DNA of 64,000 bases from positions 55,028 through 119,027 of IMG/VR virus record IMGVR_UViG_3300027801_001493. One strand, given 5' to 3'. Origin of the DNA: a virus. Positions 15,744-33,988 of this stretch are shown here, one piece after another. The notes below the pieces were generated by a model. The model was given only the letters and a program-made list of their open reading frames with translations. It was not told the origin of the DNA and made no database searches. The number at the start of each line of letters is the position of its first letter. The first letter of the stretch is position 1. The translations under genes were made by a program, and so were the position numbers.

Positions 15744-15938
15744 CTAACTGTCTCCTTCTGCTGTGTCGCATTGCTGACAGCATTCTGGTGTACCACACTT
15801 ATCGTGAACTACTTCTTCTGAAAGATCCTCACCGTAACGTCCACGTTCTCTATTGCCGTCTCCGTTTAATTCGGTTGCATCTTGTTGTATTGCCTTAAAA
15901 TCTTTTTTAAGTGTTACTCTCTTTGGCTCCATCTTCAT
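15744..15938 (-). CDS. Small Cys-rich protein, 64 aa
   Basis: Basic N-terminus ([18 protein letters not shown]), acidic middle, and a C-terminal cluster [14 protein letters not shown] with four cysteines plus an upstream His, suggesting metal (probably Zn) binding. It starts within the 3' end of clpP (32-nt overlap). The position between clpP and the next gene suggests translational coupling. Not recognised. Confidence 0.55.
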
Positions 15939-16524
15939 CCCTTGTGTTAATTATTTCGTCTGCAAGACCCCAGTCCAGAGCCTCTTGTGCAGTAAGGAAA
16001 TTATCCCTATCCATCCCTATCTCAAATTCTTCGTATGTTTTTCCTTTACTGTTATGCTGTACATATATCTCAGTAAGTTCTTTTTTCATACGTTCAATCT
16101 CATGATACTGAATTGCAATATCCGATGCCATTCCTCTAGCACCACCACTTGGTTGATGTATCATTGTTCTAGCTCTAGGCAGTAAATACCTTTTGCCTGC
16201 CGCACCTGCTTGGGATAGTAAACTTCCCATTGATGCCGCTTGTCCCATTACAATAGTTGAAACGTCTGGTTTAATGTATTGCATTGTGTCGTACATTGCC
16301 ATACCTGATGTTACAACTCCTCCTGGACTATTAATATAAAAATTAATGTCTGCATTTGGATCTTCTGCTTCTAAGAAAAGTAACTGAGCACAAATACTAT
16401 TTGATACTTGGTCGTTTACTTCACCGTTTAGAAACACAATACGTTCCTTTAAAAGTCTGCTGTAGATATCGTAACTACGTTCTCCAGCACTTGTTTTTTC
16501 TATTACATATGGTACAAAATTCAT
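15907..16524 (-). CDS. clpP: ClpP serine protease subunit
   Basis: 205 aa, full length for ClpP. Catalytic Ser98 in GQAASMGS, His123 in MIHQPSGG and Asp174 in MDRDNF are all present, as is the oligomerisation/handle helix region. It degrades proteins unfolded by ClpX-type ATPases. This window also encodes ClpX (51150) and ClpS (40851), so the phage carries an ATPase, protease and adaptor. A late-type box (TATAAATA, 16541-16548) and a GAGG ribosome site precede the ATG. Confidence 0.96.
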
Positions 16525-19288: not shown

Positions 19289-21190
19289 TTAAGTTATTGT
19301 GGTATTTGCGTTGGAAATAGTCTCTTCAGATACTATTTGTGTGATTAATGACTTACCCCAACCCTGTCTACGTCTAAAGTAGAGCCTGTTGTAGTATTCA
19401 TCGTCCTTAACATGTTCTAACATATCTATATTATATGCATTTTGACATGTGACTAATTCGTCATCTATTGTATTCATGTACTCATAGAAGTTAAATCCAA
19501 AGTTTGATTGGAAAGGATACAGTTTATTAGGATCTGTAGTGTATGCTTCTTGGAACTCCAACAAGTGTGAATACATGTATAAATCTAAATTGCAGTACTC
19601 TTGTGTTAAATGCTTGTTTACAAATTGTCTAATCTGTGTGTTATTTCTATGGAAGTCTTTTTGTGCCTCCCACATTAATGTGTGACCACTGAAGCCTTTG
19701 CTTTCTCCAGTTTCTAAATAGTATGTAATATGTTGCTTGGCTTGGTCGAATAACTTGCCTACTATACCATCATCTGTTTTACATGCTTCAAACATTTTAT
19801 CGTATGTTTCTTCATACTCTATGCCTTTGTGTTTATATATTATTCTTGCTATTGCTTGGCTCCATCCAAAGTTATGGAAGTTATTAATTACCCAAGCATA
19901 CAGCCAACTGTCTATAAATTTATCTTTAGGCATGTACTTGGTTCCGGTTATCAACTCGACCTTTTCAGGTATGTTGTCCTCTTCTTCGAATCCACTTATA
20001 TAGTTTTCTACAATCACACTAGTTAAGCCATGCTTTTCTTTTTCGCTTGGTACGTTCATGTGTGCATTTTCTAGCAGTTGTGCCAACCAACTTTCAATAG
20101 CATTGTGTTGCCCTGCTTTAATTATTTCACATAGTCCAGACTTCCAAGTATCAAATGTCTCTAAAGGTAATCCTAATATAAGTTCTGTGTAACTAGGTAT
20201 TCCTTCTCTATTACATTTTTCAAATATCATTGTAAGGTCTGACATTTCCATGTTACGTCTTTTAATCTCTTCTAGTACATCCATGTCCATACTTTGCACA
20301 CTAAGAGTAAGTCCTCTATTGAATCCACTACTAATAAACTTTTTAACAATCTCTAATATCTCATCACTACTGTTCTTATACCATGTAGCATCTACTACTT
20401 TAGGATAACCGTATTGGTTTTGTAAGTCAACTAATTTTTCTGTTACTTCCATATCTCTGTCTGTGAATACACCAAAGTTAGCATCTGCAATAGTGACATA
20501 GTCTATTTGATTCTCAGCCATCCATGTTAGTTCTTGTATTACTTTAGGTATAGGAAACTGCTTAATTTTAGCATAAGTTAAACTACCCCAATCACAAAAT
20601 GTACATGCAAAAGGGCAACCTCTATTAGTTTCTAATGTGCCATTAAACACATACCCAGTGTTGTTTGCTATAATATCGTCGAATACGCCAGTTAAGTAGG
20701 GACTCGGAATGTTTAAATCCACTAGTCTGCCGCCTTCATAGACGTCTTGTAACGGGTCGTTGTTGTTTATTGATGTAAGTATATCCACAAACATCTCTTC
20801 GCCTTCACCTAACACTATGCTGTCTACATAGGGGTGATTATCAAAGAATAGTTCTTCTTGTGGTCTATTTGTAACTTGTGGACCACCAAATATAATTAGT
20901 ATGCTTGGATTTTGTTCTTTTAAGGATTTTGCTACATGCTTGTTGTATTCCCAATTCCACATGTAATTAGAAAAGAAAACAACCTTACAATCTTGTAGTC
21001 TATCTACGACATCGTTTGGTTGTTCTCGTTTGAAAATAATGTCTTTCAGGGTGAAAGACTTCTGTACCCATTCGTATTGATTTGCGTAACTCCATAAGCA
21101 CCCTACCGAGTAAGGTAGCCAATAACCTACGAAACTGCCACCGCCTATTTTGAAGTTTGGTTGAACTAATGCTACTTGCAATTTACTCAT
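19289..21190 (-). CDS. B12-binding-domain radical SAM protein
   Basis: 633 aa. The N-terminal about 140 residues form a cobalamin-binding-like Rossmann domain (IIFGGPQVTNRP, VLGEGEE). The radical SAM CxxxCxxC follows in NRGCPFACTFCDWG (Cys192, 196, 199). Then come the usual barrel segments (YVTIADANFG, LTLSVQSMD, TELILGLPLET) and a long C-terminal extension (about 430-633). The class includes methyltransferases acting on unreactive carbons or phosphorus; the substrate is not readable. The enzyme needs a 4Fe-4S cluster, so the phage's SUF genes could mature it. The late box lies exactly 5 nt before the ATG, predicting a leaderless mRNA. Confidence 0.9.
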   Translation of the reverse strand: MSKLQVALVQPNFKIGGGSFVGYWLPYSVGCLWSYANQYEWVQKSFTLKDIIFKREQPNDVVDRLQDCKVVFFSNYMWNWEYNKHVAKSLKEQNPSILIIFGGPQVTNRPQEELFFDNHPYVDSIVLGEGEEMFVDILTSINNNDPLQDVYEGGRLVDLNIPSPYLTGVFDDIIANNTGYVFNGTLETNRGCPFACTFCDWGSLTYAKIKQFPIPKVIQELTWMAENQIDYVTIADANFGVFTDRDMEVTEKLVDLQNQYGYPKVVDATWYKNSSDEILEIVKKFISSGFNRGLTLSVQSMDMDVLEEIKRRNMEMSDLTMIFEKCNREGIPSYTELILGLPLETFDTWKSGLCEIIKAGQHNAIESWLAQLLENAHMNVPSEKEKHGLTSVIVENYISGFEEEDNIPEKVELITGTKYMPKDKFIDSWLYAWVINNFHNFGWSQAIARIIYKHKGIEYEETYDKMFEACKTDDGIVGKLFDQAKQHITYYLETGESKGFSGHTLMWEAQKDFHRNNTQIRQFVNKHLTQEYCNLDLYMYSHLLEFQEAYTTDPNKLYPFQSNFGFNFYEYMNTIDDELVTCQNAYNIDMLEHVKDDEYYNRLYFRRRQGWGKSLITQIVSEETISNANTTIT

Positions 21191-21195
21191 GCAAG

Positions 21196-21203
21196 TATTT
21201 ATA
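21196..21203 (-). promoter_or_regulatory. T4-like late promoter, leaderless type (TATAAATA)
   Basis: TATAAATA-CTTGC-ATG: the box ends 5 nt before the start codon of the radical SAM gene. Confidence 0.7.
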
Positions 21204-21205
21204 GT

Positions 21206-21457
21206 CTACTTCTTGGAGGCTTTGAGTACTTCGGCAACTAAAACGTCTTTCTTCTTACGTTTGTCTAGTTCAACACCAAATTCTCTTCCTTTAGTTTCTA
21301 AATCTGCTTTAGTAAGTTTTGATAAACTTGCTGTAGTTAATTTAGCCACTGTAGGTGCAGTTGCTTTAGCAACTGTTTTAGTTGGTGCTTTTGCAGGTAC
21401 TACTTCGTTACCATCGCTGGCTCCAAAGAAATCTGCTAACCATTTAAATAAACCCAT
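21206..21457 (-). CDS. Small HeH/SAP-like domain protein, 83 aa
   Basis: Hydrophobic N-terminal helix (MGLFKWLADFFG), an Ala/Lys/Thr/Val-rich linker (20-45), then a helix-extension-helix pattern LTKADLETKGREFGVELDKRKKKDVLVAEV. That domain usually binds nucleic acid or proteins. Its start overlaps the nadE stop by 1 nt, so it is the second gene of that unit. Confidence 0.6.
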   Translation of the reverse strand: MGLFKWLADFFGASDGNEVVPAKAPTKTVAKATAPTVAKLTTASLSKLTKADLETKGREFGVELDKRKKKDVLVAEVLKASKK

Positions 21458-22398
21458 TATAAACTCCTGTCTAGTATGTTTAATAGTTCAAACCTATCTT
21501 TATTAATAGGATGTTCTAAGTTAAAAGGATTCGCTCTTTTGAATGCTGTATTCAACACTCTATCTACTAAAAGTCTGACCTTCTTCGCAGTTTGCTCTTC
21601 CGTAATGTTATTTATGTATAAATTAATAGTATTATTGTCTATTCTTGGTAATGAAAGCAATTCAAACAATATAATATCGAACTCTAAGTATGTCATACCT
21701 AATTGATCTGCATCACTATTGCTTATTCCTAAGCCGTCTGTGGGCAATGCATCTAGTGTTGCTTGTGGTATGCCTAACATCTTTGCTAACATAGGCACCT
21801 CCCAACTTTTACTTAAACTTTGTATAGGTGCAACGTCACCTACATCACCATGTAGTGTCCAAAACCCTGCGGCTAGTTCACTAAAGTTATCTGTACTACC
21901 AACACAACCACCTACTTGATGTGCAAGGTTATACAATGTTGTCATTCTTAGCCTTGCTCTAATGTTGCCTTGTCTTTGTAATTCTTTATAAGTCTTAGCA
22001 TCTGTTAATCCTAAAAACTCTGACATGTTATCAAACTGTTCGCTCAAATCAAAACTGTGTGGTACTAGTTCAAGTGCATCTATGGCTTCTTGCCCTCTAT
22101 CAGTTTCTTCTTGTTTTTGATGTATAGGTAATGTTACTCCGTGTACTGTCCAACCTGCTTCTTTAAACAAGGCGGCAGTTAAGGCACTATCAATACCTCC
22201 GCTCATTCCTATTACAACATCTTCTATAAAGTTATCTGCTTTATATTCTGCTAGTTGTCTCACTATTACAGACAATGTTCTTTCTAGTTTTTGATGATTA
22301 CTGTATTTCTCTGATTGAATAAGTTTCTTTAATTTAGTTTCAAACCATTCCGTTAGTTCAATTTTACCTGGAGTTACTGCTAGTATCTCATTTATCAT
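21457..22398 (-). CDS. nadE: NH3-dependent NAD+ synthetase
   Basis: 313 aa. The PP-loop SGGIDSAL lies at about 66-73; NIRARLRMTTLYNLAH and GSTDNFSELAAGFWTLHGD are the ATP/NaAD-binding segments of NadE. It amidates nicotinic acid adenine dinucleotide using ammonia; there is no glutaminase domain. A phage copy would raise NAD supply during infection. It overlaps the cupin gene upstream by 11 nt. Confidence 0.93.
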   Translation of the reverse strand: MINEILAVTPGKIELTEWFETKLKKLIQSEKYSNHQKLERTLSVIVRQLAEYKADNFIEDVVIGMSGGIDSALTAALFKEAGWTVHGVTLPIHQKQEETDRGQEAIDALELVPHSFDLSEQFDNMSEFLGLTDAKTYKELQRQGNIRARLRMTTLYNLAHQVGGCVGSTDNFSELAAGFWTLHGDVGDVAPIQSLSKSWEVPMLAKMLGIPQATLDALPTDGLGISNSDADQLGMTYLEFDIILFELLSLPRIDNNTINLYINNITEEQTAKKVRLLVDRVLNTAFKRANPFNLEHPINKDRFELLNILDRSL

Positions 22399-22903
22399 TT
22401 TTTATATCCTCTGGCGATTTTAATTTAATCATTGCCGCAATTTTTTCTCTACTTACACCTCGACGTAACCAGAATTTTAAATCCTTAACGGGTTTGCCAT
22501 CTTCTTCCCTAAAGAATGAACCCATCTTACCATGTTGTCCTTTTACAAAGAATGTAACTGCATGACCACCATCAGGTATAACAACTCTATGGAAATCAGT
22601 ATGAGACCTCCAAGCAAACCAGCCTGGTCCTCTCCACATCATTTCCTTACCTCTAACCTCATAGTATCCTCCCGACAGTATGAGAGTAAAATAACCCCAA
22701 GGGTGATTATGTTCCGTAGGTAAATCACTTCCAAGAATAAGGTTTAAGCAAACTCTACCGCCATGGTAATTGCCTGCAATACCTGTCTTATGGATTTGTC
22801 TACCTAAGAAAACTCTGTGCATGTATTCATGGTCGGTGTATATGTTAGTTAAGGTCTCTGTGCCTCTACGTTTCGCTAACCACCAAAATATTTTTTGCCA
22901 CAT
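22388..22903 (-). CDS. Cupin-like protein, 171 aa
   Basis: Start at ATG 22903, 7 nt after AAGGA; earlier in-frame Mets fall in or next to the promoter box. The cupin core HNHPWGYFTLILSGGYYEV ... GPGWFAWRSHTDFHRVVIPDGG supplies His/His/Glu-type metal ligands on two conserved motifs. The class includes dioxygenases, isomerases and sugar-binding proteins; the substrate is unknown. Trp/Lys/Arg-rich N-terminus. Confidence 0.7.
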   Translation of the reverse strand: MWQKIFWWLAKRRGTETLTNIYTDHEYMHRVFLGRQIHKTGIAGNYHGGRVCLNLILGSDLPTEHNHPWGYFTLILSGGYYEVRGKEMMWRGPGWFAWRSHTDFHRVVIPDGGHAVTFFVKGQHGKMGSFFREEDGKPVKDLKFWLRRGVSREKIAAMIKLKSPEDIKNDK

Positions 22904-22926
22904 AAAGTGTTCCTTTGTAAAGTACA

Positions 22927-22934
22927 TATTTATC
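22927..22934 (-). promoter_or_regulatory. T4-like late promoter of cupin-nadE unit (GATAAATA)
   Basis: GATAAATAT on the minus strand, 23 nt before ATG 22903, directly after a terminator. Confidence 0.7.
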
Positions 22935-22940
22935 GCCCAA

Positions 22941-22968
22941 AAAAAAGCCAAACTGTAAAGTCTGGCTT
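22941..22968 (-). terminator. Intrinsic terminator after nitroreductase gene
   Basis: AAGCCAnACT / AGTnTGGCTT stem (22945-22968), followed on the minus strand by eight T. Confidence 0.85.
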
Positions 22969-22991
22969 TGTTATTAAAAACGTTGTGTTAC

Positions 22992-23615
22992 TTAGGTAAT
23001 ATACTCTACACTTATGTTTTTTATTTTTGCTGGAAACGTTAAATTTGCTTTTAAATGGTGTTCTCTTCTAGGTTTAGAATCATCTGCTATACCAACACCT
23101 AATAAAAACACTGGTTTATGAGGTATATCTAACACTCTTTGAACTTCGTCTTTATTAATACAACCACAGAACCCTGTAGTATATCCTAATAATGAACTTG
23201 TAAGGTTAGCATAACCTCCTGCTACACCAATTGCTTGATGCATATCTCTATCCATTTGTTCCCAAACATCACTTATATCTGTTTTCTTTTCTGCATCTTC
23301 TTTATCAAAGTCCCTAGCAAATACTATTAACAGTTGTGCTAAAGTTTGTGGATTAGTAGTAAGGCTGTTTCCCTTTGCTCCTTCATTTCCATCTTTGATT
23401 AAAAATCCAGATGTTTGTCTATGCACTCTTTCTATCTTTTCTCTATTTGTAATAAAGTAAGGTTTGAAAAATTGAATGTTCTGTTTACTAGGTGCTCCAG
23501 TTATTGATTCTGCAATAATATCAATATCTTCTTGCGGAATTGTTTTTGTGAGATCCCAATTACGTTGAACGTGCTGACTTTCTTTTATAGCTTTTCTTAG
23601 CATAGATTTGAACAT
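22992..23615 (-). CDS. Nitroreductase-family flavoprotein
   Basis: 207 aa. ITGAPSKQNIQFFKPYFI (FMN-binding SxxN region), DMHQAIGVAGGYANLTSSLLGYTTGFCG (central helix and GxG turn) and VFLLGVGIADDSKPRREHH (C-terminal FMN phosphate contact) occur in family order. These enzymes reduce nitro groups, quinones or flavins with NAD(P)H; the physiological substrate is unknown. TAGGAG precedes ATG 23615; the unit has its own late promoter and terminator. Confidence 0.85.
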   Translation of the reverse strand: MFKSMLRKAIKESQHVQRNWDLTKTIPQEDIDIIAESITGAPSKQNIQFFKPYFITNREKIERVHRQTSGFLIKDGNEGAKGNSLTTNPQTLAQLLIVFARDFDKEDAEKKTDISDVWEQMDRDMHQAIGVAGGYANLTSSLLGYTTGFCGCINKDEVQRVLDIPHKPVFLLGVGIADDSKPRREHHLKANLTFPAKIKNISVEYIT

Positions 23616-23652
23616 TTGTACTCCTACAATGATAACGTGTGTATGTTAAACA

Positions 23653-23660
23653 TATTTATC
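23653..23660 (-). promoter_or_regulatory. T4-like late promoter of nitroreductase gene (GATAAATA)
   Basis: GATAAATAT 37 nt before ATG 23615. It overlaps the stop codon of the upstream lipoprotein gene. Confidence 0.7.
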
Positions 23661-23829
23661 GTATAAAAAGTGTTTCGGCTCTGCACACATCTGCACTCCT
23701 ACAGTTTCTAATATTTTGCTCCCATACTACTCGTTCAGGCATCCAATCGAACTCATGCGGACCATTGTAGTCTGAACTAGTGCATCCTGTTATAATAATA
23801 CTACTTACTAGCAATATTAATTTTTTCAT
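23656..23829 (-). CDS. Small lipoprotein, 57 aa
   Basis: ATG 23829 with AGAGGAAC upstream. MKKLILLVSSIIITGCTSSD is a textbook lipoprotein signal with Cys16; the mature part is about 41 residues and contains two more Cys (NCRSADVC). It overlaps the 3' end of the secreted cytochrome c gene by 29 nt, so the two are probably translated together and may act together in the periplasm or outer membrane. Confidence 0.75.
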   Translation of the reverse strand: MKKLILLVSSIIITGCTSSDYNGPHEFDWMPERVVWEQNIRNCRSADVCRAETLFIR

Positions 23830-25087
23830 CTCGTTCCTCTTTTAGTTTATTGTATCCTTCATCATCTAGATGTGTAATAGCCAACCAAGCATGTGTCATT
23901 TCATCGCCTGTTCTACTGCCTCCCATTACCCACATATCAGGATCCGGATTGTTTGGATTGTTAGAAGTATTATCATACCATTGCTTCAGTATAATAACAG
24001 CACCCGTTGGTATAAGTGGTGCTACATCAGGTTCATACAAATGACTGTGATGCCATGTTGCACTCCAATTACTTACTTGGCTAATCTGTTCTGTTTGTCC
24101 TGTCTCTGGATAGAATATCTCTAGGCTAGCGGCATTCATTCTTAAATGTCCGTGTGGCTGAAAACTATCTAGTCTAACAGGATGGTCAAAACTATGGAAG
24201 CCTTGTGTCATGTAGTAGCCGTTGGGTGGAATAGTTATATCGTCCTGGTCGCCTAGGCGATACAAACTCAAATCTTGTTTGTATTTCAATTCTTGGCTTT
24301 CCTCTTCGCTGTATAACCACAGCCCAATCTCTACTACGTTGTTTTTGATAACTGATCCTGGTGCCATTGCTCCAAGTCCACCTGGGAACATATGAATATC
24401 CCATGCCACTTCTGCGTTGGCTGGTATAGTTCTGCATACTCCTGCAGGAACTATCTCTCCCCACTTTCCCATAGCATACTCAGTTAGCATTCCTTGTCTG
24501 CCTCCCTCAGTTATAATACTGCTGTTAGCATGGTGTACTACTGACTTTGCATTACCACGTGGCTTAACTTGTACTGCCTTAATACATCTATCACTAGTTA
24601 GCCCTGTTGGAACATTGTGTTTGTGCCATAAGTCGTTACCGGTTGCTGGTATGTCAATTGGTACACTTGGAATGATTACATCTGGTAGACCAAAGTCGGG
24701 TTCAAAATTCCATGCTTCTGTGTCTCTAAGCCTAGGGGGAATTCTAAAGACATCCTGGTCTCCGTATTGTGCTCCTTGTTCTACCCAATTATCTATTGTG
24801 TCTATGTCTTTAGTGGACAGTCTCCAATCTCCTTGTAAGTCCTGTATACCAATTCCATGGTCATAAGCATACGGTGGCATTTCTCTTGTTAATACCTTTA
24901 ATTGTATTAGTGGTGCCCACGGTCTGACTTGCTCATAACTTTCAAAACTCATAGGACCTATACCTCCTTGACGGTGACATACTACACAATTATCATTAAT
25001 AATATCTGCTACTTCCGTAACATAATCTGTAGCCCACACTGAAGTAGACCATATGGCTGTTAGAGCCACGGCTATGTGCTTGTACAT
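23801..25087 (-). CDS. Secreted cytochrome c / copper type II monooxygenase-like protein
   Basis: 428 aa. Signal peptide (1-19, VWA|TD). One c-type haem site, CVVCH (34-38), lies in a short domain ending NWVEQGAQYGD, the usual cytochrome module of environmental fusion proteins. Residues about 130-405 resemble the ascorbate-dependent (PHM-like) copper monooxygenase fold: VVHHANS (HH 185-186), PHGH (311-314) and a late Met in GDEMTHAWL (397). It would act in the periplasm after haem attachment by the host. The substrate is unknown, and copper binding is inferred from motif spacing. It is the first gene of a unit with the small lipoprotein. Confidence 0.75.
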   Translation of the reverse strand: MYKHIAVALTAIWSTSVWATDYVTEVADIINDNCVVCHRQGGIGPMSFESYEQVRPWAPLIQLKVLTREMPPYAYDHGIGIQDLQGDWRLSTKDIDTIDNWVEQGAQYGDQDVFRIPPRLRDTEAWNFEPDFGLPDVIIPSVPIDIPATGNDLWHKHNVPTGLTSDRCIKAVQVKPRGNAKSVVHHANSSIITEGGRQGMLTEYAMGKWGEIVPAGVCRTIPANAEVAWDIHMFPGGLGAMAPGSVIKNNVVEIGLWLYSEEESQELKYKQDLSLYRLGDQDDITIPPNGYYMTQGFHSFDHPVRLDSFQPHGHLRMNAASLEIFYPETGQTEQISQVSNWSATWHHSHLYEPDVAPLIPTGAVIILKQWYDNTSNNPNNPDPDMWVMGGSRTGDEMTHAWLAITHLDDEGYNKLKEERDEKINIASK

Positions 25088-25164
25088 TTTATTTTCCTTT
25101 TAGATTGCGTATCAACTACGAGTGAATACTCTGATACTTCAATAGTTTTTTACTATTATGTGTA

Positions 25165-25172
25165 TATTTATT
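25165..25172 (-). promoter_or_regulatory. Late-type promoter of the cytochrome gene (AATAAATA)
   Basis: AATAAATAT on the minus strand about 77 nt before ATG 25087; AAAGGA precedes the ATG. Confidence 0.5.
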
Positions 25173-25177
25173 AAAAA

Positions 25178-25963
25178 CTAACGGATTTTTTTATTTGTTT
25201 CGACTGCCTTTTTAAGCATATTAAGTTTAATATTCTTATCATGTGCATACTTTAAAAGTGCTTCTGTATCTTTGGGGAAACAATGTCCTCCAAAGCCAAG
25301 TTCTCCGTCTGGACCTGGTACCTGCATATGGCTACCGCCTATACGTGGATCTCTTGTTAGCATGTCTGTAAACTGTTCCCAACTAACCATACTACTGCCA
25401 CTGTTATGTAACTTATGTAAGTCATTAAAGAACATTACTTTAGTTGCTAAGTAACTGTTAATAGTATATTTGAGTAGACTCGCTGTTGTTAAATCTGTTT
25501 TAAATGTAGGAACAATCTTAACTGAACTGTGTCTAAGATATGCTTTTTCTACTACTTCACAGTCTCTCCATTTACCACCTAACACTTGCATATTAGGATT
25601 TTTAAAATCTTCGTTTGCATTTGCTTCTGTGAGGAACTCTGGATTATAAACTATTTTTAGTTCGTATTCTTTTTTAAATTCCTGTAAATAGTCTGGTATA
25701 ACTGTACTCTTAATTACTACAACACCCTTGTACTGAAGTCTATTAAGCTCTGAGAGTACATCATTTGCTATGGTTGTATCACAACTACCATCTTCTGCAA
25801 CTGGTGTAGGGACACAAACAAATATTAGTTTGCAATCATGCAAGTCATTTATAGTGTTATCTGTGTACTTAGGGTCTACAATAACTTGCTCACAGTCTTT
25901 ATCGAATCCGTTTGCTACTGCTGAGCCTACAAATCCTTTACCTATGATTCCTAACTTTAACAT
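25178..25963 (-). CDS. UDP-glucose/GDP-mannose dehydrogenase-like, C-terminally short
   Basis: 261 aa. The NAD-binding N-terminus (LGIIGKGFVGSAVA), the FVCVPTP segment, PEFLTEANA and the catalytic Cys in GFGGHCFPKDTEAL are intact. The C-terminal nucleotide-sugar-binding domain of the usual 390-450-aa enzymes is missing. It could work as a shortened dehydrogenase or need a partner. It is the last gene of the operon starting at 28209. Confidence 0.85.
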   Translation of the reverse strand: MLKLGIIGKGFVGSAVANGFDKDCEQVIVDPKYTDNTINDLHDCKLIFVCVPTPVAEDGSCDTTIANDVLSELNRLQYKGVVVIKSTVIPDYLQEFKKEYELKIVYNPEFLTEANANEDFKNPNMQVLGGKWRDCEVVEKAYLRHSSVKIVPTFKTDLTTASLLKYTINSYLATKVMFFNDLHKLHNSGSSMVSWEQFTDMLTRDPRIGGSHMQVPGPDGELGFGGHCFPKDTEALLKYAHDKNIKLNMLKKAVETNKKIR

Positions 25964-26235
25964 TATACGTTGCCTTTAATCCGTTCTATTATATAGCGGT
26001 CTTCGTATGGCTCATCGCCAACATACTCTGGTGCATTAACTAATGCCTTATCCACTCTCATTTTAATATCCCATAGTCGACGTTTCATGTCACTGCCGGT
26101 CCAGCCATCATTACGTGGGTTCTTCATTTCATGTTCTAGTTCCCATATAATATGTAGGGCTTCGTCGCTGTTAGGGATAATCATTCCTTCTCTGTTATAA
26201 TATATTCGCTCATTGTGAGCATTGTTTTTATTCAC
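25963..26235 (-). CDS. Hypothetical protein, 90 aa
   Basis: Charged, helical protein (EALHIIWELEHEMKNPRNDGW...). It overlaps guaC upstream by 8 nt and shares one base with the downstream start. Not recognised. Confidence 0.6.
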   Translation of the reverse strand: MNKNNAHNERIYYNREGMIIPNSDEALHIIWELEHEMKNPRNDGWTGSDMKRRLWDIKMRVDKALVNAPEYVGDEPYEDRYIIERIKGNV

Positions 26236-27277
26236 CTACCTGTAAGTTTTCAAAAACTGTATTATGTGTTGACTTACATTGTACAAAAGTTGTACACTTA
26301 GATAAATTCTTTAATTTGTCGGCACCAACGTAAGTGCAACCACTACGCAAACCTCCAAGTAAGTCTGTGACAACATTGGTAACTGGACCTTTACGAGGTA
26401 TTCGTACAATTCTGCCTTCACTTGTTCTATGATCCTGTACTCCACCTGTATTCTCCTGTGCTTGAGTAGTGCTACTACCGTAAAATTCTATTGTATTTGA
26501 TTCACCGTCTATCTTGCCGCCTTCGTCACAACCTGCCATCATGCCACCTAGCATAACAAAGTCTGCTCCGGCACCAAATGCCTTAACTACATCTCCAGGA
26601 CTACTACAGCCGCCATCAGCAATGATGTGTCCGCCAAGACCATGAGCGGCATCGGCACACTCAATAACGGCTGATAATTGCGGATACCCAACACCTGTCT
26701 TAATACGAGTAGTACAAACACTACCAGGCCCAATGCCAACTTTAACGATATCTGCTCCACGTAATAATAACTCCTCAGTTAAGTCTGCTGTAACTACGTT
26801 ACCAGCAATAATTGTAAGTTCTGGATACTGGTCTCTAAACCTTGCTACAAAGTCTAAAAATCGTTCGCTGTACCCATTTGCAACATCAATACACACATAT
26901 TTTATACTGCGTGATAGTTTGATAGTTGCGTCTATTCGTTCTTTGTCTATATCTGTAATGCCTGTGCTTATTGCTATGTTTCTGCATAGGTCTGGTTTGT
27001 GTACATGATTGCCTAACCAATTCCAAATGTCTGCTGGCTGGTAGTTTTTATCTAAACATGTAAACATCGGCTTTCTAACAAGTTCTTCTGCCATTGCAAA
27101 TGTGCCAACGCCTTGCATGTTAGCCGCCATAATAGGAATACCTTCCCATTCTTTACCGCTGTTCCTAAATTTGTATCTACGTTTTAAGTCAACGTCTTTA
27201 CGACTGCCCACAGTACTTCGTTTGGGTCTAAGTAAAACGTCATTGTAATCTAATTTTACGTCTGCTTCTATTCTCAT
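26228..27277 (-). CDS. guaC: GMP reductase
   Basis: 349 aa, the length of GuaC and without the CBS domains of IMP dehydrogenase. It follows the GuaC pattern throughout: [36 protein letters not shown] with catalytic Cys188, [17 protein letters not shown] and [10 protein letters not shown]. It converts GMP to IMP with NADPH, feeding guanine nucleotides back to the adenine branch. In an AT-rich phage this would shift the purine pool toward A. It overlaps the MazG-like gene by 4 nt. Confidence 0.93.
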
Positions 27278-27600
27278 TTTGTTGGAATTCCTAAGCCTTG
27301 TCTAATAACGTCATCTTCTTTTACAAACACTCCATCAATCATCATGCCTTTACGATCCTTGATATCATCGTATGCTTTTTGTAAACATTGAGTAAGTGTT
27401 AATTCATTACGTTCAGCTATGTTAATTAACACAACCATCATGTCACCTATGTCATCACTGATGTCTCTTTCTTTGCAAATGTTGTCTGACAACTCACCTG
27501 CTTCTTGTATAAGTTTAGCAAATTGTGTTTTGTCATCCGATCCTTCTATAAGGTTTCTATCGTAATGCCATTTAGTAATTAGTCTAACTAGTTCTTCCAT
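27274..27600 (-). CDS. MazG-like nucleotide pyrophosphohydrolase
   Basis: 108 aa. The all-alpha NTP-PPase pattern is present: LIQEAGELSDNI supplies the first Glu pair, DDIGDMMVVLINIAERN the E/D..D motif, then CLQKAYDDIKDRKG. It probably hydrolyses nucleoside triphosphates to monophosphates; the preferred nucleotide is unknown. It sits between GGCT and guaC in one overlapping operon. Confidence 0.8.
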   Translation of the reverse strand: MEELVRLITKWHYDRNLIEGSDDKTQFAKLIQEAGELSDNICKERDISDDIGDMMVVLINIAERNELTLTQCLQKAYDDIKDRKGMMIDGVFVKEDDVIRQGLGIPTK

Positions 27601-27977
27601 TCGAGTGTATCTCCAAATTCTTCAATATGTGCTGATTCCATTTCACCATACTTTTCTTTATAGTCGGGTCCTAAGAAATACATAACTGCTTTACCCTCAG
27701 TTGTTTCTGTTGGTATCTTATTGTAAAAGTCTGGATAACCTTCTATAGCATCTAACTGATCCATTACTTCATCGTTTACTAACCAAACTTCGCCTTTAAT
27801 CTTTTTTGATCCGCCCATAACTACACCTGGAAATGCACCCAAGTCCATCATATCATAATCTGGATATACAGTTGTAGCCATACCCACAATCTCTACCTTG
27901 TCTGGTCCAAAGCCATTAAGACCTCTAATTTCTCCGCCACTTTTAAGTGTGCCGTAAACAAATACCTTGTTATTCAT
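27588..27977 (-). CDS. Gamma-glutamylcyclotransferase-like protein
   Basis: 129 aa with the AIG2/GGCT start FVYGTLKSGG (substrate-binding YGTLK loop), a GEVWLV strand and the likely catalytic Glu in LDAIEGYPDFYNK. This fold converts gamma-glutamyl-amines to 5-oxoproline; many homologues have other or unknown substrates. It overlaps both neighbours. Confidence 0.8.
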   Translation of the reverse strand: MNNKVFVYGTLKSGGEIRGLNGFGPDKVEIVGMATTVYPDYDMMDLGAFPGVVMGGSKKIKGEVWLVNDEVMDQLDAIEGYPDFYNKIPTETTEGKAVMYFLGPDYKEKYGEMESAHIEEFGDTLEWKN

Positions 27978-28209
27978 ATTCTTTCCTACTGTCTAAATCA
28001 ATAATCTTTGTTTCTAGTGCTTTAATTCTAGCATTCATCCCAGAGATAATAATACTTGTATCCTGGTCTACAATGGTTGAATCTAACGCAATCCTGTCAT
28101 TTTGTAGATTTTCAATTTCTGTTTGTTGCTCTTTAACGGTCTTTTCTAAGTCAGAACACAATGTTATTAGTTCTGCTTTAGTCATTTGTGTTTTAGATTT
28201 TTTGCTCAT
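27970..28209 (-). CDS. Coiled-coil protein, 79 aa
   Basis: After MSKKSKTQMTKAEL, heptad-like repeats continue to the end (LCSDLEKTVKEQQTEIENL..., ARIKALETKIIDLD). It is the first gene of the guaC operon, 7 nt after the -10 of a sigma70 promoter. No enzymatic domain. Confidence 0.6.
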   Translation of the reverse strand: MSKKSKTQMTKAELITLCSDLEKTVKEQQTEIENLQNDRIALDSTIVDQDTSIIISGMNARIKALETKIIDLDSRKEYE

Positions 28210-28215
28210 AGGTTA

Positions 28216-28244
28216 ATTATACTGCATTCCTTAGTTATTGTCAA
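28216..28244 (-). promoter_or_regulatory. Sigma70 promoter of the GGCT-mazG-guaC-ugd-like operon
   Basis: TTGACA (28244-28239), 17 bp, TATAAT (28221-28216): full consensus. Confidence 0.85.
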
Positions 28245-28863
28245 GTAAATTATTATATATTTTATACTCTGGTGCCAAGTATTCCATAATTGCATCTTTA
28301 TGTGGCGTTAGTTCTTGTGCTATTTGCTGTTTGTGTTCATCTACAGTTTGGTTTACTTTGAGTATATTCATACCTTGTTTGTTAAACCATTCTGTGAGGT
28401 TGTCTGTTTTTACTACAGTTAAAGATTTATACAGCATGTGTTCTGTGATATACAACCAATTTGCTGTATGTCCATCATCATAACTATAATTACCAATTGT
28501 GAATCCATTGTCAATGCTGTTTGTATTTGTTCTTGTTAATTGACAAAATGCACTAACATATCTTTGCCATGGATCTCTAATTATTAAAACAACGTCAGTA
28601 TCTTTCCAAAATGCATTATCGAAAGGTATGTTATCTTGACTTGGTAATTCATTTGGGTACACAGTTCTGTCTATAAGGTAGTTACTGTTTCCACGTGGAG
28701 GTACTTTAGGACTTAGTGGGTCTGGATTACCATGCTGGTATATTGTGCTACTAGAGTAATTTTTCCAATCATCGTAATCATTAAATAGATTAGACAAAGA
28801 CATTAATCCGCATTTACGAGCGGAAATTATAACTTTGTTTTCCTTCTCGTTTAAAAAAATCAT
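28231..28863 (-). CDS. Sulfotransferase-like protein
   Basis: 210 aa. An N-terminal VIISARKCGLMSLSNLF occupies the place of the PAPS 5'-phosphate loop (K..GxxS/T). VVLIIRDPWQRYVSAF is the 3'-phosphate-binding RDPxxRxxS motif. The two together are diagnostic of the sulfotransferase fold. It may sulfate an envelope glycan or small molecule. It starts 1 nt before the TauD-like gene's stop and ends inside the next operon's promoter. Confidence 0.7.
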   Translation of the reverse strand: MIFLNEKENKVIISARKCGLMSLSNLFNDYDDWKNYSSSTIYQHGNPDPLSPKVPPRGNSNYLIDRTVYPNELPSQDNIPFDNAFWKDTDVVLIIRDPWQRYVSAFCQLTRTNTNSIDNGFTIGNYSYDDGHTANWLYITEHMLYKSLTVVKTDNLTEWFNKQGMNILKVNQTVDEHKQQIAQELTPHKDAIMEYLAPEYKIYNNLLDNN

Positions 28864-29805
28864 TTAGTATTCCAATTTGTCTGTGTCTTTTAACTTAGTG
28901 TACTTGTCAAAATAGTCATCTACCATGTTGTCATAATGGAATGTAATCCTATGTAGTACTCTATTTGCAATTACTTCAGGTTCCCATTCTACTCTTTTAT
29001 GTAGTGTTAGTACTTGGTCTGATATAACAATATCGCCAGGATGCCATTCATGTTCATATATGTATTTGTGTTGGAAACAATGTTCCATTAATAATTTTTT
29101 AAGTTCTTTATCTTCGAAAGTACAGTTGTTATGATAATGGAAGTATAAACCTTTCTTACCATTAAAGCCTTCGTGTACCAAAGGCATTGTGTACTTGTGG
29201 TCAACTAATCCAAAACCTTTCATCATTTGTAGTTGTGGAGTTGCTACACCTTTTGCCCAATTTTCAGGAGCATATTCATAGTTGCCTATAACACCTTCGC
29301 AACGTGCTTTTAATTCATCTGGCATATCATCGTATGCTTTTACAGTATCCATAAATGCTGTATGTGTTCCTTCACTGTGCCAAGCACCTTGTAAAGCAAC
29401 ACCTCTGGCTCTATCCATATCACCATTCATATTACTGTGCCAATCTAGTTCTCCGTTGCCAAAGATACCAGTTGGTAAACCTTTTTCTGTTTTCTTGCCT
29501 GTTACTCGTTGTAGTGGGAAGTCATTGTCCTCACCTTCAAATGTAAATGGATCTACATATTCAAGATTGCCTATGTTAGCACCATCTTGTTTCCATAGCA
29601 TTTGTTTCCAATTAGCAAAGCCACCCATCTTGTGACATAACTTTGCAAATGGTACTGTTTCAAATGGTTGTTTGACAAAAGCAATTAACAAGTTGTCTAA
29701 GTATATCTCATTAATGTCTTGATAGTCTTGTTCTGTAAGTTTTGATATGTTGCAGTCTATTAGAACTCCTGCATTTACTAATGGTATTACTTTCATTTTA
29801 CTCAC
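28864..29805 (-). CDS. TauD/TfdA-like 2-oxoglutarate oxygenase with altered metal motif
   Basis: 313 aa. The pattern GELDWHSNMNGD (117-128), a distal His in DQVLTLHKRVEW (His269) and Arg286 in VLHRITF follow the TauD layout. The usual HxD iron motif reads H-S-N (123-125), so either Asn replaces the Asp ligand or the nearby Asp128 compensates. It may be an oxygenase, a halogenase-like variant or inactive. It overlaps dCMP deaminase upstream by 8 nt. Confidence 0.65.
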   Translation of the reverse strand: MSKMKVIPLVNAGVLIDCNISKLTEQDYQDINEIYLDNLLIAFVKQPFETVPFAKLCHKMGGFANWKQMLWKQDGANIGNLEYVDPFTFEGEDNDFPLQRVTGKKTEKGLPTGIFGNGELDWHSNMNGDMDRARGVALQGAWHSEGTHTAFMDTVKAYDDMPDELKARCEGVIGNYEYAPENWAKGVATPQLQMMKGFGLVDHKYTMPLVHEGFNGKKGLYFHYHNNCTFEDKELKKLLMEHCFQHKYIYEHEWHPGDIVISDQVLTLHKRVEWEPEVIANRVLHRITFHYDNMVDDYFDKYTKLKDTDKLEY

Positions 29806-30304
29806 TTAAATGTTCGACTACGCATCCACTCTTTTCTAAAAAGTCTCTGCCTGATCCTTTGGCGGCATCATATGTATTTTTAAAATATACTTCTGATATG
29901 CCTGATTGAAATATTAATTTAGCACATTCTATACAAGGCTCGTGTGTACAAAATAGTACAGCATCCTTACAACTTTCACTGCTTTGTGCTACTTTGGCTA
30001 TTGCATTTGTTTCTGCATGTAGCACTTCTGGTTTTGTTTTTAATTTGCTCCAAGTATTACCATGTGGTGAACTATGCATAACAGCACCATCACCAATAAA
30101 CTTGTCTCTCATGTGAGGAATATCATTCCATGTATCAGTAGTTTCGCATTCATTAGTCCATCCGCTAGGCATACCATTGTAACCTATACTAATAATTCTG
30201 TTGTCTTTAACAATAATAGCACCTACTTGGGCACGTTTGGCAGTACTAAGTTCTGCAAACTGTTCTGCTACTTTTATATAGACTTCTTTAAATTTATCCT
30301 TCAC
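29798..30304 (-). CDS. dCMP deaminase
   Basis: 168 aa. Zinc site His96-Ala-Glu98 (LHAETN) with Cys124 and Cys127 in EPCIECAK. The extra His/Cys-rich insert between residues about 50 and 90 fits T4-type dCMP deaminase (CD). It makes dUMP for thymidylate synthesis. It overlaps the fabF-like gene by 4 nt. Confidence 0.93.
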   Translation of the reverse strand: MKDKFKEVYIKVAEQFAELSTAKRAQVGAIIVKDNRIISIGYNGMPSGWTNECETTDTWNDIPHMRDKFIGDGAVMHSSPHGNTWSKLKTKPEVLHAETNAIAKVAQSSESCKDAVLFCTHEPCIECAKLIFQSGISEVYFKNTYDAAKGSGRDFLEKSGCVVEHLSE

Positions 30305-31515
30305 TTGTTATACTCGGTTGTTATACTAACTGCCGCACTTCTTCCACCAAACCCAAATGATGTTTTAAACATCCTGTTGTACTTTGCTTCTTTTACTTCT
30401 GTTGGTAAGTTAAAGTGTCCGTCGTCTGTAAACGGATTTGTTAAATTTGCATTAGCTGGTATGAATCCTTCGACCATTGCTTCTGCACCTAATACAATTT
30501 CTGCAAGTCCACTAGCACCCATCATATGGCCCACTTGTCCTTTGTTGCCGTACAAGTGACTTCCTTCTGGAAAGTAATCTTTCAACACGTTATACTCTAC
30601 AGGATCACCAAATGGCGTACTTGTGGCATGTGCATTTAAAACTGTATATTCGTCAGCACTTGCACCGGCTTGCTTTAATGCTTTATCAATAGCAATCCTG
30701 GCTCCAGTGCCGTCTAAATCTGGTTGTGTTGCATGGGCTCCATCGTTAGCAATGCCTAATCCATCAACTACCCAACGTATATTTGCTCCACGCTCTTGTG
30801 CAAGTTCCAATGGTTCTACTACTAGATAAACACTACCTTCTCCCATAACAAAACCATCTCTGCTTTCGTCCCAAGGAACACTTCTGCCTGTTGGACTAAT
30901 TGCTCCTAACAGTTGGAAGTATATAGTACTCATTGAACTTGTCATGAAATCTGTTCCACCTACAATAGCACTTGTATAGCCTTCTGTTTGCATATACTTC
31001 TTTGCTATATCCAGTGCTTGTAACCCGCTAATACATGTTCCGCTAGTACCCATACTAGGCCCATGTAACTTGTAATGACTGCTTATATGGTTGCTAACGT
31101 ACTCATGTGAGCTACTTAACAGTATCTGAGGATGTACTTTACGTCTTTTATCATTTAGAATTTGTCCGTACCTTGCTAGGTTTGGTGCACCGCCTCTAAT
31201 AGTACCAACTATCACTGGTGTGTCTTGTGGTAAGTCTAATCCACTTTGTTTAACTGCATGGTCAACTGCAATCATACTGGTAACTACAGTAGGATCTATC
31301 CAACGTTTGTCTTTCTTTTTGATGAGATGCTCAATGTCTACATCGTCATAATTACAATGGAATGCTTTTTCTACTTCTAGTATCCAGTCACTGAAATGAC
31401 CTTGTTGCCTGTAATCAGTTATGGGTACTTCGAGTGCCTTTAAGTTTCTGATATTTTCAGAGAGTGTATTGCCCAAAGGCGAGACGATACCTACTCCAGT
31501 AATTGCAAGTTTCAT
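30301..31515 (-). CDS. FabF-like beta-ketoacyl synthase
   Basis: 404 aa, full length for KAS I/II. Catalytic Cys161 (SGTCISGLQA), His296 (NAHATSTPFGD) and the Lys325/His330 motif (GNKGQVGHMMGAS) are all present, with the C-terminal FKTSFGFGG loop. It condenses acyl-ACP with malonyl-ACP. It could boost fatty-acid synthesis or build a specialised acyl chain; co-transcription with oxygenase and sulfotransferase-like genes leaves the second option open. A late-type box lies exactly 5 nt before the ATG. Confidence 0.93.
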   Translation of the reverse strand: MKLAITGVGIVSPLGNTLSENIRNLKALEVPITDYRQQGHFSDWILEVEKAFHCNYDDVDIEHLIKKKDKRWIDPTVVTSMIAVDHAVKQSGLDLPQDTPVIVGTIRGGAPNLARYGQILNDKRRKVHPQILLSSSHEYVSNHISSHYKLHGPSMGTSGTCISGLQALDIAKKYMQTEGYTSAIVGGTDFMTSSMSTIYFQLLGAISPTGRSVPWDESRDGFVMGEGSVYLVVEPLELAQERGANIRWVVDGLGIANDGAHATQPDLDGTGARIAIDKALKQAGASADEYTVLNAHATSTPFGDPVEYNVLKDYFPEGSHLYGNKGQVGHMMGASGLAEIVLGAEAMVEGFIPANANLTNPFTDDGHFNLPTEVKEAKYNRMFKTSFGFGGRSAAVSITTEYNK

Positions 31516-31520
31516 AAACG

Positions 31521-31528
31521 TATTTACC
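31521..31528 (-). promoter_or_regulatory. Late-type promoter, leaderless type (GGTAAATA)
   Basis: GGTAAATA-CGTTT-ATG: 5-nt spacing to the FabF-like start codon. Confidence 0.6.
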
Positions 31529-31585
31529 GTGAAATATTAGAGGTAAGGATACAGAATTGGTAACCTTATTTTGAATTTAAAGGGA

Positions 31586-32437
31586 TTAAGACTTTTTGAT
31601 TAATGCGCCTTGCCAAAAACCTGAATTATCTGATTCTGAATTTAAACACCATTCTGATGTCCAATTCTTGCCAGTTAATGTCATAGGGTTCATAGCGGCC
31701 CAAAATGCTTCATTTACATTTGGAATGTGGAAGTTTAATATTGCCATAACTTCACCTGTTTCCATCTTATTAAAGATTGTTGCAAACATTTTTGTTTGTG
31801 TATACACGTCTAATTCTGGGAAGCCCATGTTAGGTATCCAAGGATTAATAACCCAAACATCAGGATTAAAAGTTCCTGCTGTTGTAGAGTCACCTAGTTT
31901 GGTTCCATCATGTGCAACACACAATGATTCACTTGCCCATGTTCTTGTTAACTGTGAGATTTCATTCATTGTCAATGTTGGTACTGCGTCTGCAAGTGTA
32001 ATAGTGGTAATTAACTCTGGGTCTGCATCTGGATCTGTATACGGATCAAAGTATTTAACGGAAACTGCTTCTGCGGCTTCGTTATAAACTACTTCTGCTG
32101 TTGCTGATGTATCATGTTTAAATACGTTTGCTACATTTCCTGTATTAGAAAAGTAATCACTGGTTGTTAGGAATGTATCAATATATGTATCTGATGTAAC
32201 AATTTTAACGCCTGCTTGGTTACTTGCATTGTCTACAATAAACTTTGCAGTTTTACCTGTTGCCGCATACGGTTCAACTATGTTAAGTACTTCTCCAGTA
32301 GCCATCTTTTCTACTACTGATTGAATTAATTTACCTTGTAGTTCTGTTAGTGTTCCATCAAGTAAATCATCCCATGTAAACGCGGTATCATCGATTGCAT
32401 CAATTTCTGCCGCTGTTGGTAATGTCATATTAGCCAT
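31586..32437 (-). CDS. Hypothetical protein, 283 aa
   Basis: Acidic, Thr/Asp-rich soluble protein. Near-repeated phrases (EKMATGEVLNIVEPY, about 43-57; NKMETGEVMAILNFH, about 229-243) point to an internal duplication of about 90-residue units. An AGAAAAG-type ribosome site and a late promoter precede it. Virion-type composition; family not recognised. Confidence 0.6.
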   Translation of the reverse strand: MANMTLPTAAEIDAIDDTAFTWDDLLDGTLTELQGKLIQSVVEKMATGEVLNIVEPYAATGKTAKFIVDNASNQAGVKIVTSDTYIDTFLTTSDYFSNTGNVANVFKHDTSATAEVVYNEAAEAVSVKYFDPYTDPDADPELITTITLADAVPTLTMNEISQLTRTWASESLCVAHDGTKLGDSTTAGTFNPDVWVINPWIPNMGFPELDVYTQTKMFATIFNKMETGEVMAILNFHIPNVNEAFWAAMNPMTLTGKNWTSEWCLNSESDNSGFWQGALIKKS

Positions 32438-32470
32438 TCTTTTCTCCAGTGTTAAATGCTTTTACACTTG

Positions 32471-33385
32471 TTATTTATCATTTAATGGCAGTAACTCTAC
32501 GATATTAGGAAACTCAATTACAAGTTTATGCATTTCTTCCATAGTAAAATCTTCTGCAACTTCGCCTAGCCTAATTCTGCCTACCCTATATTCTGGTGCT
32601 GTAAACGGTAAAGGAACATTATGCTCATTGCACCACGCATAATATTCTTCCATTTTCCAATAATCCTGCTCTTCTGTATTCTTAAATTGTGGACCTTGGT
32701 CAAAATTCATTGCAAATGCTGGAGCATACGTTGTTTGTTGTCTTAATTCATCTGCATGTTCTGTTGCTAATACTACATCTGATGTGCCAAAACATGCCGC
32801 TAAATCCTTGCCAACTGTATTATAATCTAACTCTAAAAATCCCCACATACCCCATGGTAGTTTTGAGTCAAAGTCCTCATCTGTTATTGTTAAGTCTATA
32901 CCCTCTAATATGTGCGGTCTATAATATTCTTGCTTTGCCACAATAAGAACTTTATCCATATCAGTTGGAACTGTTTCTAATGTGTGTACTAGTATATTAA
33001 CACGTTCTAGTAGTTCTTGTGTTTCACTACCTTTGCCATGCTCTTCTGTAAACTGTTGAAATATTAAATGTAATTGATTTAGTCTTTCTGGTTGTAAATG
33101 TGGCTCTAAATTTAAGTCTAACAAACAAGTTAGCGGTATACTACATAGACCTAACTGGTTTACTTTGTTAATAACAGAGTTCATTTCCTCTGCTAATACA
33201 CTTGCACTATTGTTATCTTGGTTAAAAGTTTGGTCTATTCTATATAGAACATTACTGTTGGGTTCCGCTCTTGCTATCTCCAACGACTCCATAACTTTCT
33301 TTGCTATAGGTGTATCGTATAGTTTAAAATCTAGGTAACGTTTATCATTACCGATTTCACTCTGTAGTATTATTCTCAGTTTCAT
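32471..33385 (-). CDS. Hypothetical protein, 304 aa
   Basis: Soluble alpha/beta protein with a basic beta N-terminus (MKLRIILQSEIGNDKRYLDF), a long helical centre, and a motif PWGMWGFLELDYNTVGKDL in the second half. It overlaps the peroxiredoxin gene by 29 nt, so it is the last gene of the SUF-peroxiredoxin run. Not recognised. Confidence 0.6.
   Translation of the reverse strand: MKLRIILQSEIGNDKRYLDFKLYDTPIAKKVMESLEIARAEPNSNVLYRIDQTFNQDNNSASVLAEEMNSVINKVNQLGLCSIPLTCLLDLNLEPHLQPERLNQLHLIFQQFTEEHGKGSETQELLERVNILVHTLETVPTDMDKVLIVAKQEYYRPHILEGIDLTITDEDFDSKLPWGMWGFLELDYNTVGKDLAACFGTSDVVLATEHADELRQQTTYAPAFAMNFDQGPQFKNTEEQDYWKMEEYYAWCNEHNVPLPFTAPEYRVGRIRLGEVAEDFTMEEMHKLVIEFPNIVELLPLNDK
32472..32479 (-). 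promoter_or_regulatory. T4-like late promoter (GATAAATA)
   Basis: GATAAATAA on the minus strand 34 nt before ATG 32437. Confidence 0.65.
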
Positions 33386-33959
33386 CTTGTTGAGCCATGT
33401 CTTCTTGTTGTTCTGCTAATGCTTGTCTTCTAACATCTTTAATTCCTGTTAAATAATTAAGCATTGATGTTGCATCACTTACATCAAATGGATCGCCGGC
33501 ATAGTTATCTTCTTTGCCTTGCTCTACAAAAATCATTTCAATATAACCATTGTCTACGACCATTGAATATCTGTGGCTTCTTAATCCAAAGTTTACTGCT
33601 TCTTTCTTAACAAGCATACCCATATTTCTAGAAAAGTCACCGTTGCCATCTGCGATTGGTTTAACATTTTCTATACCTAAACTATCTAACCATGCATTCA
33701 TAACAAATGAATCATTAACACTTAGACAAAAAACTTCGTCTACGTCCTGATCAATAATGTCATCATAGTTTGCTTCGTATCCAGGTAAATGTGTACTACT
33801 ACATGTTGGTGTAAATGCTCCAGGTAGTGAAAATACCACAACTCGCTTACCACCGAATAAATCTTCTGTGTTCTCACTGATCCAGTCAAAGTCTACTCTG
33901 CCTTCTGGAATGCCTCTTCTGTTAAACTGTACCATAGGTACGGTCATCTCTACTGCCAT
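33357..33959 (-). CDS. Peroxiredoxin (Prx5/AhpE-like)
   Basis: 200 aa. Peroxidatic Cys in LPGAFTPTCSSTHLPGY, the PxxxTxxC signature of the Prx5 group, preceded by VVVFSLPG and followed by CLSVNDSFVMNAW. A Gln/Glu-rich C-terminal tail (170-200) is an addition. It reduces peroxides and would protect Fe-S clusters made by the neighbouring SUF genes. CGGAGA is the ribosome site. Confidence 0.92.
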   Translation of the reverse strand: MAVEMTVPMVQFNRRGIPEGRVDFDWISENTEDLFGGKRVVVFSLPGAFTPTCSSTHLPGYEANYDDIIDQDVDEVFCLSVNDSFVMNAWLDSLGIENVKPIADGNGDFSRNMGMLVKKEAVNFGLRSHRYSMVVDNGYIEMIFVEQGKEDNYAGDPFDVSDATSMLNYLTGIKDVRRQALAEQQEDMAQQDETENNTTE

Positions 33960-33988
33960 GTCTATCTCCGATTTTTTAAAATGTACTA

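Follow-up and report, generated by a model that had tools for sequence, protein, structure and literature searches.

The window analysed here, 64,000 nt of a 119-kb IMG/VR virus record, carries a gene (A) for what is predicted to be an exported cytochrome c fused to a dicopper monooxygenase core of the PHM/DBH type. The sequence-only reading had already seen in it a secreted protein with a c-type haem site and PHM-like copper motifs in a phage, and sequence comparisons, a predicted model and the phage genes of the record support this. The interpretation favoured here, and probably the correct one, is that A is an auxiliary metabolic gene, gained by horizontal transfer, whose product is a periplasmic dicopper monooxygenase wired through haem c that keeps a host oxidation going. 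It fits the definition of such a gene in being host-derived, located within true phage genomes and under purifying selection; its sort is new among auxiliary metabolic genes, the principle is not. The relevant features are collected in Table 1.

Table 1. Positions in the window of gene A, its predicted functional residues, the overlapping lipoprotein gene and a phage hallmark gene.
Feature	Position	Strand	Remarks
Head maturation protease	15907..16524	-	phage hallmark of source record; phrog_94, E 6.9e-51
57-aa lipoprotein gene	23656..23829	-	conserved viral family; starts 29 nt inside 3' end of A, in another frame (overlap 23801-23829)
CRSADVC, conserved Cys pair C43 and C49 of lipoprotein	23683..23703	-	C43, R44 and C49 invariant in 15 divergent members
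Lipobox ITGC of lipoprotein	23782..23793	-	C16 acylated (predicted), invariant in 15 members; +2 residue T, not D
Gene A	23801..25087	-	428 aa, ATG start; exported mono-haem cytochrome c fused to PHM/DBH-type dicopper monooxygenase core
M397 (GDEM motif) of A	23897..23899	-	predicted CuM Met ligand; invariant; equivalence to DBH Met487 inferred
H312-G-H314 of A	24146..24154	-	two CuM ligands; invariant in A and B types; aligned with DBH His412/His414
H232 of A	24392..24394	-	third CuH ligand; H in 287/287 rows; aligned with DBH His333
H185-H186 of A	24530..24535	-	two CuH ligands; H in 287/287 rows; aligned with DBH His262/His263
M70 (REMPPY) of A	24878..24880	-	likely distal haem ligand; M in 286/287 aligned rows, remaining row a gap
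Haem c site CVVCH of A, residues 34-38	24974..24988	-	invariant
Predicted signal peptide of A, residues 1-19	25031..25087	-	read from sequence; putative cleavage after VWA
Shine-Dalgarno-like AAAAGGA	25095..25101	-	7 nt before ATG of A

The N-terminal part of A has the marks of a c-type cytochrome: a CxxCH site (CVVCH), an invariant distal Met (M70) and an export signal. The role of M70 rests on inference from the MPP motif that class I cytochromes c have. Residues 1-19 (MYKHIAVALTAIWSTSVWA) resemble a signal peptide whose hydrophobicity and n/h/c regions are kept across homologs as the sequence itself varies, and the haem site is invariant across viral and bacterial homologs, so both elements first noted from the letters alone have been borne out. 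Pfam recognises the domain only faintly: PF13442 scores 15.4 bits on A against a gathering cut-off of 27, and weak cytochrome c matches are found in 28/28 viral members, the best at 1.6e-4. No variation occurs at ten residues (C34, C37, H38, M70, H185, H186, H232, H312, H314 and M397), either in 28 viral homologs of 73-87% identity or in a set of 18 viral and bacterial homologs, most of them at 25-30% identity. Judged by these alignments, what stays invariant in the family down to 25-30% identity is a core of putative ligand positions for haem and copper. Comparison of the window with four relatives gave pN at about pS/6 and a JC-corrected dN/dS of ~0.1 (dN 0.09-0.12, dS 0.9-1.25); A is under purifying selection, and the observed pattern is no product of chance.

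Structure prediction, suggested beforehand as a check on the copper site, gave an AlphaFold2 model of A with pLDDT 85.2 and pTM 0.82 from a broad alignment (A2, 41 rows) and a moderate one, pLDDT 67, from a narrow alignment. In Foldseek searches with the better model, ranks 1-31 were all PHM/DBH (E 1.4e-11 to 7.4e-9), and the match ranked after them had E 6e-6; the earlier, poorer model also had PHM/DBH at ranks 1-31. Similarity is moderate (TM 0.59 by target, rmsd ~5 Å). The check thus came out in favour of a PHM-type fold, in a predicted model, but ligand geometry was not inspected in coordinates.

At the sequence level, the A2 profile matched human DBH (dopamine beta-hydroxylase, the enzyme making noradrenaline in humans) with E 7e-7. 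Five His of A lie opposite DBH chain residues 223, 224, 294, 373 and 375, which a constant offset of +39 converts to His262, 263, 333, 412 and 414, the published copper ligands (PMC4846438). The alignment ends short of DBH Met487, and M397 was assigned by motif, position and invariance. Profiles A1, A3 and A5 gave no DBH match, so this match is alignment-dependent and fragile, and PDB sequence searches with the single A protein and narrow profiles returned nothing useful. Among the Pfam Cu2_monoox families (PF01082/PF03712), A has no match, the curated cut-offs not being reached; PF03712 is matched weakly by 6/18 relatives (best 0.0013), and a second phage protein, B (below), reaches 15.7 bits in one locus (L007), where the cut-off is 23. 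The fold evidence, which comes from the predicted model, is independent of the fragile sequence match.

Taken against peptidylglycine alpha-hydroxylating monooxygenase (PHM) and DBH, A shows the His-His pair and third His of CuH (H185, H186, H232), the HxH and Met of CuM, the Met by position and motif only, the two-domain beta fold, in a predicted model without an experimental structure, and secretion. The PHM-like His/Met motifs claimed earlier are therefore confirmed, the ligands being invariant and the predicted fold PHM/DBH-like, and the fold and metal sites are well supported by model and ligand pattern, without metal-content data. Identity to PHM/DBH is only ~10-13%, and where DBH has its DOMON domain and ascorbate supply, A carries a cytochrome c domain at the N-terminus, the electron source being inferred.

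The 57-aa ORF overlapping the end of A is, on the strength of its conservation, truly coding, and represents a conserved phage lipoprotein family with a lipobox and a CRx4C motif. It has the signal sequence and lipobox Cys expected of a bacterial lipoprotein; M1, C16, C43, R44, C49 and F55 are invariant in 15 divergent members; and homologs occupy the same overlapping position relative to A. A few (L002, L003) have no lipobox as translated. By the E. coli rule, a non-Asp +2 residue directs a lipoprotein to the outer membrane. The protein may tether A at the (outer) membrane, a role that is inferred, with no biochemical data. A search of bacterial genomes for the pair, also suggested at the outset, indicated that the lipoprotein is specific to viral loci: it is absent from bacterial loci with the single exception of L082, a 335-kb phage-like contig in a Neomarinimicrobiota MAG that is probably a viral contig binned into it. 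In one 25-kb contig fragment a homolog (L257:4001-4174:+) is found without A, adjoining ClpX-, HSP20- and ClpS-like genes. An Rz1-type spanin was considered and rejected, as PHROG spanin matches cover the signal-peptide end only and the C-terminal CRx4C is not proline-rich.

Partners of A were compared in 82 distinct viral loci, those with enough sequence after A; these count fragments, not independent events. In 75 of them A is accompanied by the lipoprotein, by B, or by B and a stand-alone cytochrome c: 39 have A and B, 23 A and the lipoprotein, eight A, cytochrome c and B, four A, lipoprotein and B, and one has all, leaving seven with A alone. B without the lipoprotein (47/82) and the lipoprotein without B (23/82) are thus the common arrangements, with both present in 5/82. 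The pairing of A and lipoprotein proposed in the sequence-only reading is supported with a qualification: the partner is real, but it is one of two main partners, and its role is inferred. B, which shares 26% identity with A and keeps every ligand, is likewise an exported cytochrome c-PHM protein, and was never seen without A in loci with >2 kb of upstream sequence. The small exported cytochrome c (Pfam PF00034, 3e-7) lies between A and B in some phages, and a search for it gave 13 viral loci. Three-gene redox modules of this kind (L016, L043, L045, L046, L242-L252) are consistent with an electron-transfer enzyme. In two large phage contigs (L018, 340 kb, and L024, 217 kb), A is flanked by FecR-like and CHASE2-type sensor-like genes, as read from translations.

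A scan of viral contigs, called for earlier as a look at other marine phages, identified 156 IMG/VR stretches encoding relatives of A, the best 80 of the 156 being 73-98% identical. Carriers range from ~40 kb to 340 kb, with many gene contexts. A is absent from 50,697 GenBank phage records and has no match in GenBank plasmids, B has none in GenBank phages, predicted viral structures (BFVD) yielded no PHM-like match, and no phage PHM-like gene was found in the open literature searched. The initial description of the gene as very unusual in a phage is thus true of GenBank phages and BFVD, but not of uncultivated marine phages, where it is common.

The source record has tail-fibre-like genes in addition to the protease in Table 1. 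A lies within a minus-strand gene run, with a UDP-sugar dehydrogenase gene upstream and nitroreductase, NAD synthase and radical SAM/B12 protein genes downstream. These belong to a metabolism-type block (19289-34000, minus strand) that also includes IMP dehydrogenase/GMP reductase, TauD dioxygenase, ketoacyl synthase and peroxiredoxin. T4-like late promoters were looked for without success: TATAAATA is not enriched in the window (five found, 10 expected), and the single match to AATAAATATAC upstream of A, with 0.2 expected, is not convincing. Given the signal peptide, A is unlikely to be a virion protein.

The closest cellular homologs of A, at 65-81% identity, are from gammaproteobacterial MAGs, several of them named Pseudohongiella or OM182. 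In a tree built by a quick method, with some branches weakly supported, the viral clade nests inside gammaproteobacterial A, nearest to L086; on these phylogenetic grounds, marine phages acquired A horizontally from gammaproteobacteria of the Pseudohongiella/OM182 type. A 6.7-kb contig in a Flavobacteriales MAG (L096) falls inside the viral clade and is probably another viral contig binned into a MAG. The bacterial genes share the haem and copper ligands and differ in setting. They lie in catabolic-looking islands with tandem A copies (37/55 loci), a secreted 317-aa protein (47/55), cupin (20/55), GMC oxidoreductase (10/55) and Gluconate_2-dh3 (9/55) genes, often with a divergent homolog of 540+ aa without the CuM His (34/55), and no lipoprotein, whereas phage copies have the lipoprotein, B or the small cytochrome c. 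MFS and PQQ-dehydrogenase genes are also found near bacterial A-like and B-like copies. By inference, the islands look like systems for oxidation of organic compounds, by hydroxylation followed by dehydrogenation.

In PHM and DBH, ascorbate supplies two electrons, CuH serves electron transfer, and hydroxylation takes place at CuM (PMC4846438, PMC6123673). In the mechanism proposed for A, the protein would be exported by Sec during infection, have its haem attached in the periplasm by the host cytochrome c maturation system, and be loaded with two coppers. The fused haem would pass electrons on to CuH, receiving them from host periplasmic cytochromes or, where a phage encodes its own cytochrome c, from that protein; this supply would take the place of the ascorbate of the eukaryotic enzymes. 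CuM would activate O2 and hydroxylate a small organic substrate at a C-H bond. The lipoprotein or the paralog B would hold or assist A at the membrane, and the outcome would be a host oxidation step kept running in the infected cell. Ascorbate is mostly absent from bacteria, so electrons probably arrive by way of the fused haem and, in some phages, the additional cytochrome c. The analysis demonstrates the reading frames, their conservation and purifying selection, the ligand pattern, the phage context, the bacterial origin and, as a prediction, the PHM-type fold. What is inferred is catalysis, the route of the electrons, the kind of substrate, what the lipoprotein does, any benefit and the host, with no activity or metal-content data.

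That a bacterial gene was wrongly joined to a phage contig can be given next to no credence. The high identity of the cellular homologs would allow it, as would the G+C content of A (41.6%, against 35-37% around it), but homologs recur in several phage contexts, at >80 distinct viral loci, many of the IMG/VR records searched have a terminase scoring above cut-off, and the source record itself has capsid protease and tail genes. Viral A sequences also cluster together in the bacterial tree, apart from L096, and the phage contexts of the homologs have 35-40% G+C compared with 44-64% in bacterial loci. Misassembly from a host contig, named beforehand as one of the things that would refute the finding, is rejected on this recurrence and G+C difference.

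Two further readings accept the gene as phage-borne and differ on its use. An active haem-copper enzyme in the periplasm might serve the phage directly, through a cell surface change, superinfection block or lysis timing, which is conceivable but unlikely. Many small secreted lipoproteins act in exclusion or lysis, the lipoprotein partner is confined to viral loci, and in cluster 50 (L048, L066, L074-L076, L078) A directly follows an endolysin-type M15 peptidase. Against this, A has lost no ligand and shares 65-81% identity with bacterial enzymes of the catabolic type, B and cytochrome c as its companions indicate redox chemistry, and its neighbouring genes vary between lineages. The fuller version, in which A is part of the phages' own envelope machine, anchored or regulated by the phage-specific CRx4C lipoprotein or paired with a second enzyme and phage cytochrome c, and acts on the infected-cell envelope or excludes rivals instead of reproducing a host catabolic step, is equally tentative. 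It is rather improbable that A handles redox, or copper and oxygen, without hydroxylase activity, as an electron sink or copper chaperone against oxidative or copper stress. The same phage does encode a peroxiredoxin and a nitroreductase, and some related bacterial proteins with redoxin domains have lost CuM His, the HxH being replaced by R/K and N/S/G. In viral A and B, however, none of the six copper ligands is missing, those of the O2-activating CuM site included, which argues against a role in electron transfer only, since loss would then be expected, as in the redoxin-type paralogs next to bacterial A.

The auxiliary metabolic enzyme proposed here resembles pmoC, which is encoded by large freshwater phages and is likewise a phage-borne piece of a copper monooxygenase with its copper ligands kept and close to host versions (PMC7674155). 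Unlike A, pmoC is one integral-membrane subunit of methane monooxygenase (PMC7674155); A is soluble and exported, with another fold, a haem of its own and all the ligands for two coppers. Cyanophage PET genes (PMC5082946) and viral cbb3 oxidase reads (PMC3474794) resemble A as phage genes acting on host electron transfer, but include no PHM-type enzyme or haem-copper monooxygenase fusion. If the proposal is true, marine phages of ~40-340 kb have a redox enzyme class not found here in catalogued phages or predicted viral structures, and need host haem c maturation and periplasmic copper loading during infection. It also becomes directly testable whether cytochrome electrons, in place of ascorbate, can drive PHM chemistry.

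The comparisons also indicate that marine gammaproteobacteria have a large family of PHM-like enzymes linked to cytochrome c, for which no characterised member was found. Counts per bacterial genome are 2-15 for A-like copies and 11 or more for matches to B; in G024-G033 the paralog expansion is very large, with up to 15 A-like matches and 34 B matches in one Pseudohongiella genome. Divergent from the A type are cytochrome c-PHM homologs of 540-634 aa (L083:4498-6315:- and similar bacterial genes), some with redoxin-like N-termini, in which CuM His are replaced by R and N/S. Near PHM-like genes, 18 bacterial-locus members (L105:14231-15361:- and 17 others) have an NHL beta-propeller matching the PAL domain of peptidylglycine amidating enzyme (E 2e-23). 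Other NHL proteins score higher than PAL, and it is possible that these are a bacterial counterpart of the PHM-PAL pair.
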